NCBI GenBank assembly: GCA_947625055.1
Contig: CANQMT010000006.1
Span: forward strand, 1-64,000
Length of the DNA: 64,000 nt
Reading direction: 5' to 3'
Origin: an uncultured Monoglobus sp.
GTDB taxonomy: Bacteria; Bacillota; Clostridia; Monoglobales; Monoglobaceae
The position numbers and the translations under genes were made by a program. Below the pieces are notes generated by a model. It made no database searches. It saw only the letters and a program-made list of their open reading frames with translations, and was not told the DNA's origin. This document shows, piece after piece, positions 15,639 through 23,710 of this stretch. The number at the start of each line of letters is the position of its first letter. Position 1 is the stretch's first letter.

Positions 15639-15713
15639 GGTCCGTTGGTCAAGAGGTTAAGACACCGCCCTTTCACGGCGGTAACAGGGGTTCAATTCCC
15701 CTACGGATCACCA
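15639..15713 (+). tRNA. tRNA-Glu (anticodon TTC)
   Basis: Acceptor GGTCCGT pairs with ACGGATC, the anticodon arm is CCGCC/CTTTCAC/GGCGG giving TTC, the T loop is TTCAATT, and CCA is encoded. Confidence 0.97.
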
Positions 15714-15722
15714 CAAAAATCT

Positions 15723-15769
15723 AATCCGAACTTTTCGCCTGTCGGCGGAGGGTTCGGATTTTTGTTTTT
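15723..15769 (+). terminator. Terminator of tRNA-Glu
   Basis: AATCCGAAC and GTTCGGATT pair over a 20-nt loop that contains a smaller GCC/GGC hairpin, then TTTGTTTTTG. Confidence 0.75.
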
Positions 15770-15869
15770 GTCGGCCGCTTATCACTATGTCGGCATTGAT
15801 CGGCACGATTTGTGTTATAAAATAATAATCGGATACCGCAAACCATTAAATATTTTGGAGGAATTAAAA

Positions 15870-18599
15870 ATGTCATTATGGTTTGATTCAAGACGGCATG
15901 AATACGCAATGGACGGTAAGAACGGCTGGTTTATAAAATATTGCGATAAAATCGCCGATAAGCTGAGCGGGCTCTGCGAAGAACATTTCAAAGGCAAGGC
16001 AAACCGTCATACCGCCGATGATGTGGATTACGACGAGGACATGACCGTTAAGGAAAGAATGGAGAAAGAGGTTGCTGACCGCAAGGCCGCGGATGAAAAT
16101 ATCATGGTGGGTCTTGAGGGCGAGCGGGCGGCGCGCGCGGGAGCCGACGCGGCTCTCGGCAAAAGGATCGACGCGGAAACTTCGTCCCGCGAATCGGGCG
16201 ACGCGGCTCTCAGCAAAAGGATCGACGCGGAAGCCGAGGCAAGACGGTCGGCTGACGAGACCTTGCAGGATAACATTGATTCCGAATCGGAAGATCTGAA
16301 CAATCAGATCGCCGAAGAAAAAAGTGAGAGAAAAAACGCCGACACGGCATTGGGCGGCAGGATCGACGCGGAAGCTTCATCCCGCGAGTCGGGCGACACG
16401 GCACTCGGCGGCAGGATAGATAAGGAGATCGCGGACCGCAAGAGCGGCAGCGCCGCGCTTCAAAACAGCTTAAACAGCGAGATCTCGGACAGAAAAGCGG
16501 CGGATGATATTCTGCAAAGCAGTATCGACGATTTGCGTCTCAGCGTGAGGGGAACAATGTCAAACCCTATTATCGTGAGCGAGGAAGAACTTGACCGCAC
16601 ATGGGAAAACGGATTTTATAAAAGCACGATCGGAGAAACAAAAATAGATCACGGCGATGTGAATTACGAATGGACTGTCGCGGTGACAAATTATGCGGGA
16701 ACGGGCGAGGCGGAAATCTGCCATGTTGTGCAGACGATGATAAATGAAAAAGGCATTGCGGAAATGTACAGGAGCGCGTCCGCTACGGTTACAGATCCGT
16801 CTCGGGTGCTCGTACATTCGGAGTTTTCAGAATGGACGCCGATACAATATCTTGACGGCACACTCAAACATCCGAGAATATTAACCGGGGAAGAAATTAA
16901 TTTTAACACGATAATCGACCCGGGAGTATATTATATCGACTGCGACAAAATCGTAAACGGCCCGCCGCACAGCGCGAGGTGTGAGTGTCTTATCGTGATC
17001 CCCGCCGTGCGCGGAGTGGCAGGTAGCGATCAGATAAAAGATAGGGAAGCGGGTAAATATGTTGAGCAGATCTGTCAGGCGAATTATGAGAGCGAAATAT
17101 ATGAATACAGACGGATCCTTTCGATCGGCGAGGATCAGTACGATGACGTAACTTACGGAGAGTTAAAATGGAATCTGGTTATAACGGAAAACCATCTTTC
17201 AGACGCCGTAAATGCCTGCGATAGCTATAAAAAGCTGTCAGACCGCATCAATAAAGTTGATGAGGGCACGCTTAAAAATCCTATTACAGTGTCCAATGTA
17301 CAACTTGTAAAAACATGGAAACCGGGTTGGTATAATTGTGCCACAATAGTGTTGCCCGGCGAATCAGGCAAGGCGCAGTCGCCAAATCATTTAATACGGG
17401 TAACTAATCAGTGGGACAATGAGGGCGGAAATTGGATCGTCCAGACAGCATATGATTGGAACGGAAACGCAAGCTTTTATAGACGGTCGGTTGAGGGAGA
17501 TCATAATTACGACAAAACTTTAGAAAATCATCCGTTTAGTGCCACTGATGATGACTGGATACCGATCGTTGACAACAAGGACGATCCGTTTGTGATGCAC
17601 GGTACATATGACTTGACTGAACATCCGGGCGGCATAAGATGCATGGGGGAGGCAGCATCCGATAACGAATCATGGATGCTTGATTATGAAATTCCGCCCG
17701 TAATCATAACCAATTCGGTTTTAGGGGTTGTTGAACTAAAGGCTCAGGATGAAGTCTACAATGGCTTAACGTGGGACGACAAAGGAAAAACATTCAGCGT
17801 GTTCGCGGAATACAGAAGGGATGACAATTACGCAGAAGCTAAAATTCTTCTTAACGAACACCCGATATGTCAAAAAAGTTATGCCGTTTTAAGATCCGCT
17901 AAAGAACTGTCGTTTATACGTTTGTATTTGGGAACCGCGACTGTCAAAGATATAAGCATAGGCGGGGCCGCGGGCCCAGACGGTGCCATGACGCCGTCAT
18001 CGGCGGATATTGATTTCACGTTTTCGGATCAGGGTCCGGAAGGACATAACCCCGCAATTTATATTTTAAATTACGGGTGCATGTTCGATGATAAAGGCGG
18101 ATTTAACGCGGGCGAACAGTCGGAGGCCTCGGACGGAGGCGGCGCGATAGGCCGATTGGCTAAAACAACTTCGGGCGGCGCCGTAGGTTCTGAAGCCGAA
18201 AGCAAAAACGGATTTGCCGGCGGCTATCATGTTAAAGTCGGAGGCATGGGCGCGGCGATAGGCGCGAACGCGCACGCATATCACGGCGGCGCGGCAGGCA
18301 GCGGAGCGCAGGCAGGCAGCGGATTTGCGGGCGGAATGAACGCGAAATGCGGCACGGCGCCGAACGGCGCGGACGTAGACTGCATACAGCTCGGAAGCGG
18401 CACAAACGGCAATGAAAAGACGCTTAAAGTGTATGATTATCAGTTGACCACGCTCGATGCGCAGGGAAATCAACATCTTTCGGACGTCGGCGATATTTCC
18501 AAACTTAAAACAGACGACAGAACCGATATAGTTTCGGCGATTAATAACATAGTATTGGAAATCGAAGAAATAAAACAATCGACGGCGAGCATAAATTAA
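15870..18599 (+). CDS. Phage tail-fibre-like protein, orphan
   Basis: A 909-residue protein with no signal peptide or membrane helix. Residues about 55-230 are a long coiled coil of degenerate repeats (RIDAETSSRESGDAALSKRI and variants). About 232-590 hold two or three beta-rich, Trp-containing segments like pyocin-knob or tail-fibre domains (TWENGFYKS, TWKPGWYNC). About 750-835 are Gly/Ala-rich repeats such as GAAIGANAHAYHGGAAGSGA. The C-terminus carries LKTDDRTDIVSAINNI, close to the LKT-D-x-x-LVxAIN motif of phage fibres. GGAGG precedes ATG 15870. No tail, portal or integrase genes are nearby, so it is a stand-alone fibre or adhesin-like protein of unknown use. Confidence 0.75.
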   Translation: MSLWFDSRRHEYAMDGKNGWFIKYCDKIADKLSGLCEEHFKGKANRHTADDVDYDEDMTVKERMEKEVADRKAADENIMVGLEGERAARAGADAALGKRIDAETSSRESGDAALSKRIDAEAEARRSADETLQDNIDSESEDLNNQIAEEKSERKNADTALGGRIDAEASSRESGDTALGGRIDKEIADRKSGSAALQNSLNSEISDRKAADDILQSSIDDLRLSVRGTMSNPIIVSEEELDRTWENGFYKSTIGETKIDHGDVNYEWTVAVTNYAGTGEAEICHVVQTMINEKGIAEMYRSASATVTDPSRVLVHSEFSEWTPIQYLDGTLKHPRILTGEEINFNTIIDPGVYYIDCDKIVNGPPHSARCECLIVIPAVRGVAGSDQIKDREAGKYVEQICQANYESEIYEYRRILSIGEDQYDDVTYGELKWNLVITENHLSDAVNACDSYKKLSDRINKVDEGTLKNPITVSNVQLVKTWKPGWYNCATIVLPGESGKAQSPNHLIRVTNQWDNEGGNWIVQTAYDWNGNASFYRRSVEGDHNYDKTLENHPFSATDDDWIPIVDNKDDPFVMHGTYDLTEHPGGIRCMGEAASDNESWMLDYEIPPVIITNSVLGVVELKAQDEVYNGLTWDDKGKTFSVFAEYRRDDNYAEAKILLNEHPICQKSYAVLRSAKELSFIRLYLGTATVKDISIGGAAGPDGAMTPSSADIDFTFSDQGPEGHNPAIYILNYGCMFDDKGGFNAGEQSEASDGGGAIGRLAKTTSGGAVGSEAESKNGFAGGYHVKVGGMGAAIGANAHAYHGGAAGSGAQAGSGFAGGMNAKCGTAPNGADVDCIQLGSGTNGNEKTLKVYDYQLTTLDAQGNQHLSDVGDISKLKTDDRTDIVSAINNIVLEIEEIKQSTASIN

Positions 18600-18718: not shown

Positions 18719-19177
18719 TCAGTGCAGGATAAAATGCTTTACTTTTGAGAGGCACCGCCTTATCGGGCGGAACGCGGACAGCGCGCAGCAGTATATCCGG
18801 TACCGCGCGCCGCGAAGGTGATAGATCCTGCCGCCGCTTTTGATAACGCCGCAGGCGACCGCCAGAACGTTATCGTTGGTGATGCCGGGCTCAAGTGCGG
18901 TCTGGTTGTCGCCGCACAGCGTATAGCCGTTTTCGGTCACGCGCACTACCCTATGCAGGACAAAACCGCCGTCATTTCTGCGGCAGAGCGGTATATCGTA
19001 TTTTTTAAGCCCGCCCTCGGCGGGCTTTTTTAATATGACCGTGTCACAGCCGTTGCCGATAAGCGGCAGCATGCTTGTGCCGTTTGTGATCATTCTGAAT
19101 GTTCTGCCGTTTTCAAACTCGCCGAGCATGATCGGCAGCAGCTTTTCCATCGGCAGCTTTTTGGTCTGTTTCTCCAT
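18719..19177 (-). CDS. S24/S26-like (signal-peptidase-fold) peptidase, soluble
   Basis: A 152-residue protein with the S26 layout: nucleophile motif NGTSMLP (Ser35), DTVIL, then LHRVV (His75) and TLCGDN (Asp90). Ser with His, rather than Lys, is the arrangement of the SipW/ER-type signal peptidases. It has no N-terminal membrane anchor, unlike ordinary signal peptidases, and a basic, Cys-containing C-terminal tail. AGGAG lies 5 nt before the ATG. It is the last gene of a minus-strand operon after the nucleotidyltransferase (8-bp gap). In that context it may cut a leader from a modified peptide; this is inference. Confidence 0.7.
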   Translation of the reverse strand: MEKQTKKLPMEKLLPIMLGEFENGRTFRMITNGTSMLPLIGNGCDTVILKKPAEGGLKKYDIPLCRRNDGGFVLHRVVRVTENGYTLCGDNQTALEPGITNDNVLAVACGVIKSGGRIYHLRGARYRIYCCALSAFRPIRRCLSKVKHFILH

Positions 19178-19185
19178 ACGAACTC

Positions 19186-20403
19186 CTAATCATAAAACTT
19201 TTTGTCAAAGAAGCTTTTTTCAAATCCGAGCTGCTTGTTGTTGTCTATAACTTCGTCCATAAGACTTCCGTAGCCGCCGGCGCCCGAGTTGAAAACCACG
19301 TCGGCCATTGATTTGACGTCCCCTTTTCGCTTGGTCAGGATCTGGAACCAGCGGACGACGGTGTAATAAGGATAAAGATACGGCCTCCCCTTGAGTCCGG
19401 GATATTTTATTTCCATAATGGCGCGCTTGTTGAACATTACGCTCAGCAGCACTTTTGCTTTTCGCACGATCGGGTTCTTGTCGTGTTCCGCCAGACGGTA
19501 AAATCTCAGCATTGTATAGTTTTCGATCGAGCCGTAGGCCCCGTTGAGCATCAGAAGCGTCTCGGTCTGCCGTGTAAGCGGCGTGTGTTCCGCGCCCTCG
19601 AACCATATCTCGCCAAGGCGGGTTATAACGCTGTCAAACTTTGAAAACCCGAGCTTTTCGATTTTTTCGGCGATATAGTCATAGCGCGGGTTCGGATCTT
19701 TCTTGAGCTCCCTTCTTATCAGCCAAAGGTCAACGACCGGCTTTACGCCTCCGCCCGACGTTTCGTAATGCATCGCGAAATGGGTCAGAGCGTGGATATA
19801 AAGATCCTCGGCGGTCATGCGGTGCTTGAATTTTCCGCCCGCCGGCACGGCCCTCTCCCATGCGTCGTCGAACAGTTTGTATTTGTCGCCGTGATAGACG
19901 GACGTTAATCTGGTGTGAAGCTCAAGGTTGATAAACGGGTCGAGGTTAAAAACGACCTCGTGCGTGCTGGTGTGGTCGTATACATATCCGTTCTCCTCAA
20001 GCACCTGCCGCACTTCATCGAGCTGGTTCGGGTCGATAAGCACATCAACGTCGTTCATTTCACGCATATACGGCTTGGGATAGAGATCCTTTATCACAAA
20101 ACCTTTGATAGGCATTGAAAAAAGCCCCCGATCTTCAAGCTTGTCAAACAGATCGTTTAAATATATGTTTCTGAACTTTTCTTTCGCTTTAAGCATCCTC
20201 GCGTCCGCCGTGAGCCTCTCAAGAGTATCGGGATCGGCTCCGGTTAAACGGTCGGCCATGTCCGCGGCAATGCAGACGAAGCCCTGATTATACGCGGTCG
20301 AAATAAAGCGGCCGGGATCAAGATCCGCGGGCGGATCGGGCGCGGGACGGCCCAGGACCGCCTCGGTTATTGACTTGATAAAATATTCCGATGTGCTGTC
20401 CAT
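19186..20403 (-). CDS. Nucleotidyltransferase family protein (NTP_transf_5-like)
   Basis: A 405-residue protein with the family signature around residues 95-120: MPIKGFVIKDLYPKP followed by MREMNDVDVLI, where the Asp-x-Asp binds metal. A His-rich helix (IHALTHFAMHYE) and a C-terminal helical part follow. Related proteins occur in peptide-maturation clusters, including some lasso peptide clusters, where the exact reaction is mostly unproven. AAAGGAG precedes ATG 20403. It lies between PqqD (10-bp gap) and the S26-like peptidase, so all three are one operon. Confidence 0.8.
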   Translation of the reverse strand: MDSTSEYFIKSITEAVLGRPAPDPPADLDPGRFISTAYNQGFVCIAADMADRLTGADPDTLERLTADARMLKAKEKFRNIYLNDLFDKLEDRGLFSMPIKGFVIKDLYPKPYMREMNDVDVLIDPNQLDEVRQVLEENGYVYDHTSTHEVVFNLDPFINLELHTRLTSVYHGDKYKLFDDAWERAVPAGGKFKHRMTAEDLYIHALTHFAMHYETSGGGVKPVVDLWLIRRELKKDPNPRYDYIAEKIEKLGFSKFDSVITRLGEIWFEGAEHTPLTRQTETLLMLNGAYGSIENYTMLRFYRLAEHDKNPIVRKAKVLLSVMFNKRAIMEIKYPGLKGRPYLYPYYTVVRWFQILTKRKGDVKSMADVVFNSGAGGYGSLMDEVIDNNKQLGFEKSFFDKKFYD

Positions 20404-20413
20404 ACTGTCTCCT

Positions 20414-20677
20414 TTAATCGTCAAGCGCTCCGGCGCTCCTTATTGTCTCAACGAATTTTTCGGCGTCGCGCTTTGCGGTTGCGGCGTCTATGTCGTATTC
20501 CGCAGTGAGGGCCTGCGCCAGTCCGTCGAGATCCGCGCCTTTCTCAAGCGCCTTCCACAGTACGATCCCGCTTTCGTTGAGCTCGATTATGGAGCTGCGT
20601 CCGTTCGCGGTCCCGCTTTCGATAACAACGGCCTCGCCGCCGAACTCTTTTAATATGTATCCGTTTTTTATTTTCAT
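20414..20677 (-). CDS. PqqD-family peptide-binding protein (RiPP recognition element)
   Basis: An 87-residue stand-alone PqqD-like winged helix: NGYILKEFGGEAVVIESG, SIIELNESGIVLWKAL, then a helical half ending in FVETIRSAGAL. Such domains bind the leader of ribosomal peptides and pass it to tailoring enzymes. AAGGAG precedes the ATG. It heads the operon with the nucleotidyltransferase and S26-like peptidase and is divergent from an ABC exporter, the layout expected for a peptide-maturation locus. No precursor peptide gene was recognised. Confidence 0.85.
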   Translation of the reverse strand: MKIKNGYILKEFGGEAVVIESGTANGRSSIIELNESGIVLWKALEKGADLDGLAQALTAEYDIDAATAKRDAEKFVETIRSAGALDD

Positions 20678-20714
20678 GATAATTCTCCTTGCTTTGCCGT
20701 TTTAAATATATATG

Positions 20715-20743
20715 TTGAAAAATTTTGCGCGCTGTGTTATAAT
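20715..20743 (+). promoter_or_regulatory. Promoter of the ABC exporter gene
   Basis: TTGAAA (20715-20720), 17-bp spacer, TATAAT (20738-20743). I could not identify a convincing promoter for the divergent PqqD operon. Confidence 0.8.
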
Positions 20744-20779
20744 GTTTTTGAACGGGATTCCAAAGGGAGGTGCCTGCCG

Positions 20780-22459
20780 ATGAGCAAAAGCGGAACCCTC
20801 AGATGGATTTACGGCCGTATTCGCGGCCAGCGGTACATAATGTTTTTATTGACGGCGCTCAACGGCGTTTCTTCCGCGCTGGGCGTCTATTTCGCGTTCC
20901 TTTCAAAAAGCGTTATTGACGCGGCCACATCGCGCGATATGCACCGCCTGCTTATTCAGTCTGTGATCGCCGTGGCGGTTATCCTTGCCGAGATCCTGCT
21001 TTCCTACCTTTCCGCGTATATCGAGGAGCGTTCGACCGCGACTCTTGACAAAAAGCTGAAACAGCGGATATTTTCGATGATAATCCGAAAGGATTACGCC
21101 TCGGTGACTGCCTACCACAGCGGCGACCTTATGACCCGTCTTACAGACGATGTGTCGGTGATATCGGCCAATGTGCTGACTCTTGTGCCGGCGGTGTTCG
21201 GTTTCGCCGTGACTTTGGTCCTGGCGCTTATCGGGCTGCTTGAGCTGGATCTCAGATTCGGCCTGATATTTCTGGTGGGCGGCGCTTTGTTCCTGATAGC
21301 CGTCAGAGTTTTCAGCCGCTATCTGAAAAGTCTCCACAAGCGGGTCCAAAACGCCGTTTCTAAGGGCAACTCATTCTTTCAGGAAGCGATAGCAAATCTG
21401 CTGATGATAAAGGTCTTCGGCATCGAGAACCGTGTCGGCGATATCGGCGGTGAGCGCCAAAGCGCCGTGCGCCGCGCGAGGATCCGCCGCAGCAACGTTC
21501 ATATCGTGTCATACATGGGCGCGAGCCTGCTGTTCAGCATAGGCAGCCTTTACGCCCTGATCTGGAGCGCCTATAAGCTGTCGCTCGGTCTGATAACATT
21601 CGGAACCCTGACGGCTATTTTGCAGCTTGTGAACCGCGTTCAGTCGCCTGTGGCCGCTATGACGGGCGTTATCCCGCGCGTGTTCTCGATCCTGGCATCC
21701 GCTGAGCGTCTTATCGAGATCGAAAATCTGCCTGACGAGGAAGCTTCGGCTCCGAAGGACCGCGAGGAATATTACCGCGGCTTTTCCGAGCTGCGCTTTT
21801 CGGGCGTCAGCTTCTCGTACGATAAACTTCCGGTCATCAGGAATGCCGACTTCGCAGTAAAACGCGGCAGCTTCACCGTTATAGGCGGTCATTCGGGGAT
21901 AGGAAAAAGCACCTTGCTCAAGCTGCTTCTCGGCGTGTATAAGCCCGACGGCGGAAGCGTCTCGGTCGTGATAAACAACGAGCGGATCGAGGCCGGGCCC
22001 GACACCCGCGCGCTTTTTGCCTATGTGCCTCAGGGAAATATGATATTGTCCGGCACTATCCGCGGCACCCTGACGATGGTGCGTCCGAATGCCTCCGATG
22101 AGGAGATCCGGCGGGCCGCGGAAATAAGCTGCGCGAAGGAATTTTTAGACCAGCTTCCGGAAGGGCTCGACACCGAGATAGGCGAGAACGGACTCGGTCT
22201 GTCGGAGGGCCAGGTACAGCGCCTTGCCATAACCCGCGCCGTGCTTTCGGGGGCGGGAGTCCTGCTGCTTGACGAGGCAACCTCCGCTCTGGACGAAAAG
22301 ACCGAGGCGGAGCTTTTGTCAAACCTCAAGGCGCTTAAAGACAAGACCTGCATAATCATATCGCACAAACCGTCCGCGTTTAAGATCTGCGACACTGTCA
22401 TGACCCTGAGCGGCGGAAACGTTAATGTCAAAAATATCAAAAGTACAGACGGCGGATAA
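20780..22459 (+). CDS. ABC exporter, fused membrane and ATPase domains
   Basis: A 559-residue half-transporter, expected to act as a dimer in export. Residues about 1-310 are the six-helix membrane domain. The ATPase domain has Walker A GGHSGIGKSTLL (about 370), LSEGQ signature, Walker B VLLLDEATSALDE and the H-loop ISHKPSA. There is no N-terminal C39 peptidase, so a leader would have to be removed by another enzyme. AAAGGGAGG precedes the ATG. Divergent from PqqD and convergent with the HPr-kinase-like gene, which ties it to the peptide-maturation-like cluster. Confidence 0.9.
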   Translation: MSKSGTLRWIYGRIRGQRYIMFLLTALNGVSSALGVYFAFLSKSVIDAATSRDMHRLLIQSVIAVAVILAEILLSYLSAYIEERSTATLDKKLKQRIFSMIIRKDYASVTAYHSGDLMTRLTDDVSVISANVLTLVPAVFGFAVTLVLALIGLLELDLRFGLIFLVGGALFLIAVRVFSRYLKSLHKRVQNAVSKGNSFFQEAIANLLMIKVFGIENRVGDIGGERQSAVRRARIRRSNVHIVSYMGASLLFSIGSLYALIWSAYKLSLGLITFGTLTAILQLVNRVQSPVAAMTGVIPRVFSILASAERLIEIENLPDEEASAPKDREEYYRGFSELRFSGVSFSYDKLPVIRNADFAVKRGSFTVIGGHSGIGKSTLLKLLLGVYKPDGGSVSVVINNERIEAGPDTRALFAYVPQGNMILSGTIRGTLTMVRPNASDEEIRRAAEISCAKEFLDQLPEGLDTEIGENGLGLSEGQVQRLAITRAVLSGAGVLLLDEATSALDEKTEAELLSNLKALKDKTCIIISHKPSAFKICDTVMTLSGGNVNVKNIKSTDGG

Positions 22460-22471
22460 GCCGTCTTTCTT
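22448..22471 (+). terminator. Terminator of the ABC exporter gene
   Basis: GACGGC, GGATAA (holding the stop codon), GCCGTC, then TTTCTT. Confidence 0.65.
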
Positions 22472-23165
22472 ATTTGTCCTTGACCGCAAGATAGGCGGTT
22501 TTTGCCGCGTCGACGCTCATGTTGCAAAAAAGATCCCATATCCTGACTTTTTTTAAGAACAGGATGATATATTCGGCTGTCTTTTCAAACAGAGCGGGAT
22601 CCGCCGGGCGGTAGACCGAGGCAAGCATCCGCGTCAGTGATGTTTTGGGATCAAGCGGAACGACACGGTTATCCGCCGAGCGGTTCACGCAGAACAGATC
22701 GCGGAGCGGTACGCTCGTGTTGGTTTGAAGGTTCTCCTTGCCGCACCAGGGCGTGCCGTAGGCGCGGAATTCGCCGCCGATACAGCGTATCAGCGGCTTG
22801 TCCCCGTTAACGATAACGCATTCGTCGCCTAAGAGCTTTTTCCAATACATGGCGTGAGTGGTTTTGCCGGTGCCGCTGGGCGCCGTAAAGGCGTAACCCG
22901 CGCCGCCGACTTTAAGCACGACCCCATGCATAAGAAAACCGTCGAAATCCAAGATCCTGTCCGCTATCTTGCGGTACACGGCGAGGCTTTCAAGGTAATC
23001 CGCCTCCGAAATGTCATCGCTTTTTTCGGCGGCGATCTCGGCTTCGGTAACGCTTATGTCAAAGTCCGTTTCTCCGTCCGTGAAATAATCCGCGCAGAGC
23101 GCCTCGACTCCGGGATACTTGTTGTCAATGCCGACCTTGAGGCCGGCAATTTCTATTTTGAACAT
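22470..23165 (-). CDS. HPr-kinase-like ATPase of peptide-modification type
   Basis: A 231-residue protein with the catalytic half of HPr kinase only: MHGVVLKVGGAGYAFTAP, P-loop APSGTGKTTH (about 92-101), NGDKPLIR and YGTPWCGKE. The N-terminal domain of true HPr kinase is missing. Short HprK relatives occur in RiPP clusters; in the paeninodin lasso cluster one phosphorylates the precursor. It starts 11 nt after the upstream stalk-domain gene with no clear ribosome site, so translation is probably coupled. Substrate unknown. Confidence 0.8.
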   Translation of the reverse strand: MFKIEIAGLKVGIDNKYPGVEALCADYFTDGETDFDISVTEAEIAAEKSDDISEADYLESLAVYRKIADRILDFDGFLMHGVVLKVGGAGYAFTAPSGTGKTTHAMYWKKLLGDECVIVNGDKPLIRCIGGEFRAYGTPWCGKENLQTNTSVPLRDLFCVNRSADNRVVPLDPKTSLTRMLASVYRPADPALFEKTAEYIILFLKKVRIWDLFCNMSVDAAKTAYLAVKDK

Positions 23166-23176
23166 TTGTTAAATTT

Positions 23177-23710
23177 TTAAAGCGTGATCGTGACCGTTGA
23201 AGTCGCTTCGTCCCACAAAACGACCGCGTCAAGCGCTTCGGATACGGCTCTTAACGGAACCAGCGTCCTGTCGCCGCTGCCGTCGGGAAGAGGCAGAAGG
23301 AACGGAGGAACTTCAAGCTCTTTTTGCGTGTTGAGGTCGACCGAAACATCCGCGATCGAGATACCGGGCTTGCCGATCTTCAGCGAAACCAGCTTGTAGC
23401 TCTTGGTGGCGAGAATGATCTGGCTCTCGTCTATCCACTCTACCTGAGCGCCCAGTTCCTCAAAAATGGCGCGCATGGGCACAAGAGTGCGTCCGTCCAA
23501 GATAATGGGATCCATGTCAAATTCCATAGTTTTGCCGTTGATAATGACCGTTGCGGTCTCGGCCGAGCCTGAGTCCAGCGCTTCCTGCGCCCGGGCCGCC
23601 CAGGCCGCGCCGTTGCTCTCGTAATCCGGCGCGCCGCTTTCATCGGCAAAAACGCCCGTGAACGAGAAGAGCATAACGCAGCATATCAATGCGGAAATGA
23701 ATCTTTTCAT
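23177..23710 (-). CDS. Secreted protein with copper-amine-oxidase-N-like stalk domain
   Basis: A 177-residue protein with a signal peptide (about 1-22, ending in VFADE). After a short acidic stretch, residues about 50-177 form the stalk-type domain common in clostridial surface proteins: VIINGKTMEFDMDPIILDGR, TLVPMRAIFEELGAQVEW and a second TLVPLRAVSEALDAVVLW, ending in TSTVTITL. It lacks any catalytic amine oxidase part. GGAGG lies upstream of the ATG. It is the first gene of a two-gene unit with the HPr-kinase-like gene, an unusual pairing of a secreted and a cytoplasmic protein. Confidence 0.8.
   Translation of the reverse strand: MKRFISALICCVMLFSFTGVFADESGAPDYESNGAAWAARAQEALDSGSAETATVIINGKTMEFDMDPIILDGRTLVPMRAIFEELGAQVEWIDESQIILATKSYKLVSLKIGKPGISIADVSVDLNTQKELEVPPFLLPLPDGSGDRTLVPLRAVSEALDAVVLWDEATSTVTITL

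Follow-up and report, generated by a model that had tools for sequence, protein, structure and literature searches.

What does a peptide-maturation cluster mature when no precursor is encoded within it? The question is raised by six adjacent genes at 18719-23710 of the stretch analysed here (64,000 nt from an uncultured gut bacterium, Monoglobus sp., referred to as the window), for which comparison of the small open reading frames (ORFs) in or near the cluster yields no precursor. A sequence-only reading had proposed these genes as a candidate peptide-maturation cluster, had likewise seen no precursor among them, and had concluded that either the product class is new or the precursor lies elsewhere. 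The second of these options is borne out by seven precursors found elsewhere in the same genome, whereas the first is not, as the gene set is that of the linear polyphosphorylated peptides (LPPs), a family of ribosomally synthesized and post-translationally modified peptides (RiPPs) described in May 2026 (PMC13381572), and recurs in Clostridia together with precursors. In our view the cluster very likely serves an LPP-type system as its hub for maturation and export, with the precursors encoded in trans.

LPPs were described in Bacilli, with lppAKBSDN of Paenibacillus alginolyticus as the cluster studied, and their enzyme set comprises a RiPP recognition element (RRE), a SipW-like leader peptidase, an HprK-like kinase, a nucleotidyltransferase and an MsbA-like exporter (PMC13381572). 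LppK adds several phosphates to S3 of the core, LppS removes the leader by cutting after T-1 only together with LppB, and LppN is inactive in the heterologous host (PMC13381572); PsmN has been linked to hexoses on phosphoserine (PMC9266682). The same five families (lppK-B-S-D-N; tentatively so for the kinase), again with a SipW-like leader peptidase and no cyclase, are present in the window, where all six ORFs proposed earlier were found. The LppB-like protein is a stand-alone PqqD-type RRE (20414-20677, minus strand; PF05402, 2e-15), and its family profile matches the lasso B1 proteins TbiB1 and TfuB1 as well as two recent PDB chains of the PqqD family. The nucleotidyltransferase (19186-20424, minus strand; PF14907, E=7e-35) is of the NTP_transf_5 family and resembles LppN and PsmN; its listed start is TTG at 20424, and an in-frame ATG 21 bases inward (20403) is also possible. 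Divergent from the PqqD gene, across an intergenic segment (20678-20779) that presumably holds the promoter region given the gene orientation, lies the MsbA-like, LppD-like ABC exporter (20780-22459, plus strand), which matches PF00664 and PF00005 only and in which the Pfam scan detects no C39 peptidase domain, as had been noted before. The putative LppK-like kinase (22470-23165, minus strand) is tentatively assigned to the HprK-like proteins by alignment of its P-loop and by a match to the ScmC model (E=1e-4), and its SGTGK P-loop, N120 and D122 are invariant in an alignment of 12 relatives. The sixth gene (23177-23710, minus strand) encodes a secreted stalk-domain protein (Cu_amine_oxidN1, PF07833, 1.7e-27), presumably an envelope partner. 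Pfam cut-offs are passed by the PqqD, nucleotidyltransferase, exporter and stalk-domain proteins.

The remaining enzyme, an S26/SipW-like peptidase (18719-19177, minus strand), is recognized by its conserved residues (S35, H75, D90 and E96, invariant in an alignment of 20 relatives), by weak SipW and SEC11 profile matches that fall below the Pfam cut-off for S24/SipW, and by an AlphaFold model (pLDDT 93) whose nearest folds are human SEC11A and UmuD′, and also the lambda repressor. It shares the Ser/His catalytic pair and the fold with SipW and the ER-type signal peptidases I but differs from them in being a soluble, RRE-linked protein of 152 residues with Glu (E96) at the acid position; neither sequence nor model predicts a transmembrane anchor, hydrophobic segment or membrane helix. 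Unlike an ordinary signal peptidase I it is thus anchorless, sits in an RRE gene group and is patchily distributed in the genus. By analogy with LppS, which removes the leader in Bacilli (PMC13381572), this protein is very probably the leader protease of the cluster, the role that the sequence-only reading had offered for it. In two other genomes (G305 and G291; loci L156 and L167), the S26 match lies inside the long open frame of the ABC exporter, an apparent peptidase-exporter fusion.

The recurrence of the gene set was followed by searches for PqqD (60 relatives) and S26 (392 Clostridia genomes), after which the genes around the matches were mapped; the genomes are mostly drafts and the gene calls mechanical. 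The S26 family is present in 119 of the 392 genomes (E<=1e-6), the weakest matches being ordinary signal peptidases. Around 91 loci the families were counted as S26 77, PqqD 75, HprK 53, ABC 48 and NTP 20, so that linkage among them is far above chance, although such co-occurrence counts take no account of kinship among genomes. A frequent arrangement is HprK-PqqD-S26-ABC-NTP, which is often identical to the LPP gene order, and the fullest operon reads secreted protein, precursor, SLH protein, HprK, PqqD, S26, ABC, NTP. An SLH-like protein occurs within two genes of the core at 21 of the 91 loci, as against 2 of 712 background genes, and the stalk-domain protein, which is present in all five genus genomes carrying the cluster, occupies the slot held in other Clostridia by this kinase-adjoining SLH protein. 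These loci differ from the LPP systems of Bacilli in their host class, Clostridia, and in encoding a secreted stalk or SLH protein within the cluster. A 'stalk' model built by automatic iteration was discarded because it had drifted to SLH proteins.

In the closest carriers of the window cluster (genomes G003 and G010), the entire locus is retained at ∼84% nucleotide identity minus exactly the nucleotidyltransferase gene, which in the window stands between the S26 and PqqD genes that are adjacent in these two genomes; the transferase is therefore dispensable. Compared with window positions 19186-20410, loci L031 and L032 show the gene cleanly gone, with the other cluster genes and 11-15 precursors kept. 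The same two genomes hold NTP_transf_5 paralogues within polysaccharide biosynthesis loci (L076-L078), and a further carrier, G006, has a second locus (L056:1203-7685) with the order NTP, HprK, 78-residue ORF, SLH protein, PqqD and a 664-residue secreted protein but without S26 or exporter, whose 78-residue ORF (MKVYQKLKAEIVDLTEK...) could be a precursor of divergent sequence.

Where, then, are the substrates? Small ORFs around the Clostridia loci form families of 30-80 residues with a common leader, MKxYxKPxIExxxLxxxExIA, and variable cores, so that the relatives share a conserved short peptide as well as the gene set. A whole-genome search with this leader in the window genus gave weak matches in carriers only, and when read in place these proved to be ORFs of 54-65 residues that combine the pattern Y..P..E...FEC.D.IT.S with a C-terminal Y...W motif. 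A simple DNA pattern of the leader was abandoned, since it matched non-carriers as well as carriers. Counts by the resulting genus precursor model refer to 12 Monoglobus genomes, five with the cluster and seven without; the assignment to Monoglobus, in the class Clostridia, rests on named relatives at 83% identity. The genome of the window (G000) holds seven precursors, on contigs C2, C4, C8 (two), C15, C21 and C22, the window itself being on C6; C4:61366-61527 and C21:5525-5692 are two of the seven. The other carriers hold 15 (G003, one of them a 27-residue remnant), 11 (G010), 4 (G006) and 2 clear precursors (G007, which is 74% complete). Precursors, together with the FN3-like partner domain discussed below, are found in 5/5 carriers and 0/7 genomes without the cluster (P=0.0013), a strict co-occurrence of hub and precursors that is likewise uncorrected for relatedness. 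Whereas LPP clusters of Bacilli contain one to three precursor ORFs, the window cluster has none and its seven lie in trans, and a single hub can serve up to ∼15 peptides.

This association extends beyond the genus. With a broader precursor model (E<=1e-3), carriers chosen for having no nearby precursor, and non-carriers defined by the lack of any S26 or PqqD match, unlinked precursors were detected in 22 of 28 carriers and 1 of 23 non-carriers (P=7e-8); with training genomes excluded, 17 of 23 carriers still have them (P=2e-6). High copy numbers also recur, with 17 matches in G064 and 10 in G277 (E<=0.1). Cluster-centred RiPP mining thus misses most precursors of the LPP family in Clostridia.

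The genus leader, YxxPx[AV]E[IV]TxFECxDVITxS, has an invariant Y7 and P10 and matches the LPP precursors in its YxxPx[hydrophobic] element within a conserved N-terminal leader followed by a variable C-terminus. Across 28 genus pairs of precursor and partner, the T and the S of a T-x-S element and the W are each conserved in 28/28, and no Cys occurs in the cores, which span 30-36 residues. These properties also bear on whether the cluster belongs to a lasso-peptide system with its cyclase elsewhere in the genome. The putative HprK-like kinase, NTP_transf_5 protein, stand-alone RRE and ABC exporter are all shared with paeninodin/pseudomycoidin clusters, a kinship pointed out previously for the kinase and the nucleotidyltransferase, and one precursor leader of the wider set gives a weak match to the paeninodin model (E=0.19). 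However, the B2 leader peptidase (PF13471) is absent from 12/12 genus genomes, with the S26 peptidase in its place; only a few cores have Gly at position 1 and the ring-acceptor position is not conserved; and the asparagine-synthetase-like macrolactam cyclase has no match among the six cluster proteins, the remainder of the genome not having been searched for it. The leader has the [YW]xxP motif of these clusters, but with Tyr and not Trp, and the core is predicted to be linear. A lasso product is accordingly most improbable, and the reading was dropped on the absence of B2 from the genus.

A feature that the sequence-only reading missed is that the precursors are multiplied and that each has a secreted surface protein as its partner. 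Every resolved genus precursor lies directly downstream of a secreted-protein gene (298-876 residues), with a gap that is mostly <=60 nt and never exceeds 255 nt, and in the genus the partner always ends in the same C-terminal domain (GVIRFFQ...YGFYF...FYxDL...YYAKAFV). This domain occurs in 7 copies in G000, 14 in G003, 11 in G010, 4 in G006 and 3 in G007, and in none of 31 other genomes searched; precursors and domains correspond one to one in G000 (7/7), G010 (11/11) and G006 (4/4), the unmatched cases being the extra 27-residue remnant in G003 and one domain without a clear precursor in G007. Its model is an FN3-like sandwich (pLDDT 85, pTM 0.80) with FN3/Ig-like structural matches (best VIA Z 9.3), a comparison with the PDB that indicates the fold and not the function. 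The position of each precursor of the window genome behind such an FN3-tailed secreted protein is a difference from the LPP clusters described in Bacilli. By a crude signal-peptide rule, 27/30 partners have a signal peptide versus 43/204 background genes, and an LPxTG motif or C-terminal membrane anchor is seen in 0/30. Outside the genus, 58 of 63 precursors have a same-strand gene <=300 nt upstream, and 33 of the 44 complete upstream genes encode a signal peptide by the same rule; the exceptions mostly belong to a radical-SAM subtype with Cys-containing cores. Even outside Clostridia (L291-L293), a secreted protein of 1061-2293 residues with fn3, CBM_X2 or InlB-type repeats is followed by precursor, HprK, PqqD and S26. 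The precursor is thus usually located behind an adhesin-like secreted gene beyond the genus too. Profile comparison of the C-terminal domain gives support within the family (98.6% with genus-g9 proteins); the idea that partners throughout the phylum have one such domain in common was rejected, as the comparison does not support it for the other groups tested.

Such constant pairing might mean that secretion of the surface proteins is itself the task of the six genes, with the S26 protein as an adhesin signal peptidase and the small ORFs as by-products, an idea to which the resemblance of S26 to SipW and the invariable position of the small ORFs beside secreted proteins in the genus lend some appeal. 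Yet the peptidase is anchorless and its homologue in Bacilli requires the RRE (PMC13381572), and the peptide leader, which bears the YxxP bound by such RREs, is the most conserved part of the cassette: identity over the 28 pairs is 72% for leaders, 33% for cores, 35% for partner C-terminal domains and 16% for the remaining partner. Direct secretion is therefore very unlikely.

In the LPP-type hub that we favour, the PqqD protein would bind the YxxP leader of each precursor as LppB does, the kinase would phosphorylate a serine beside the cleavage site in the manner of LppK, and the S26-like peptidase would cut off the leader as LppS does, the invariant Thr most likely being the last leader residue. 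The candidate phosphorylation site, corresponding to the serine near the N-terminus of LPP cores, is the invariant Ser two residues after this Thr (28/28). The nucleotidyltransferase, where present, may decorate the phosphate, as suggested by PsmN, and the ABC protein would export the linear core of ∼30 residues. As to what follows, the constant pairing, the lack of LPxTG or C-terminal anchors and the presence of SLH or stalk proteins among the hub genes together point towards a peptide-plus-partner surface function; joint action of exported peptide and partner at the cell surface, the stalk and SLH proteins being envelope components, has about even odds. Somewhat less probable, and tentative, is the specific form in which each adhesin-like protein has its own phosphorylated peptide (glycosylated with the nucleotidyltransferase) matured by the shared hub, this peptide anchoring, assembling or capping the partner on the envelope.

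Alternatively, the exported peptides could be diffusible bacteriocins or signals, with the adjoining secreted protein co-regulated or serving as immunity protein or receptor. Variable cores behind a conserved leader, multiple copies and a patchy distribution within the genus are conflict-like, and extensive transfer, typical of conflict systems, was inferred by the LPP authors (PMC13381572). Throughout Clostridia and also outside them, however, secreted protein and precursor stand in a fixed order separated by short gaps, and the partners are adhesin-like (CBM_X2, fn3, InlB repeats) rather than membrane receptors or immunity proteins, which leaves this alternative rather unlikely. PMC13381572, the only paper on the LPP family that was found, calls the biological role of LPPs, like that of phosphorylated lasso peptides, unknown, and its main text does not mention Clostridia, S-layer or surface proteins, or precursors in trans. 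LPP systems in Clostridia, multiplied trans-encoded precursors and the pairing with surface proteins are new here, and the pairing is the first genomic clue to the function of the family, turning its role into testable predictions of binding, co-localization and anchoring.

Several results weigh against the LPP-type hub or its proposed surface function. The kinase has no Pfam match and no PDB sequence match. The full LPP motif is YxxPxVLxHQxIxFETxxS, of which the genus shares YxxP and the Thr/Ser site while VLxHQ is absent; the second half of the leader being unlike the LPP motif, the cleavage and phosphorylation sites are therefore assigned by analogy. Among the wider carriers, 6/28 gave no precursor match with the broader model. 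Divergence of the core correlates with that of the partner C-terminal domain (Mantel r=0.39; r=0.26 controlling for the remaining partner), but joint inheritance of linked genes can produce the same. Mimicry by the core of the last strand of the partner C-terminal domain was rejected (4 of 60 column-shuffled profiles were as good), as was TTxY mimicry of the partner N-terminal strand, which involves four residues (5 of 100 shuffles as good). At L043, L047, L060, L134 and L270, a TTxY in the core does resemble an N-terminal TTTxY strand of the adjoining secreted protein, a likeness that is not significant.

The radical-SAM subtype was observed adjoining PqqD, HprK or S26 at L161, L162, L294, L296 and L298 (PF04055 in L161 and L294), and an example of its Cys-containing precursor cores is MKKYVVPKMELVNLRVEERMAGSICNGACVEDVVYNDVTYYAFAGQAN. 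On the far side of the S26 gene, the window carries a large coiled, head-repeat-like ORF (15645-18599) directly after tRNA-Glu (15639-15713). Between tRNA-Glu and the S26 gene, L031 and L032 carry different, related ORFs, which makes this stretch a variable spot, perhaps of mobile or phage origin.

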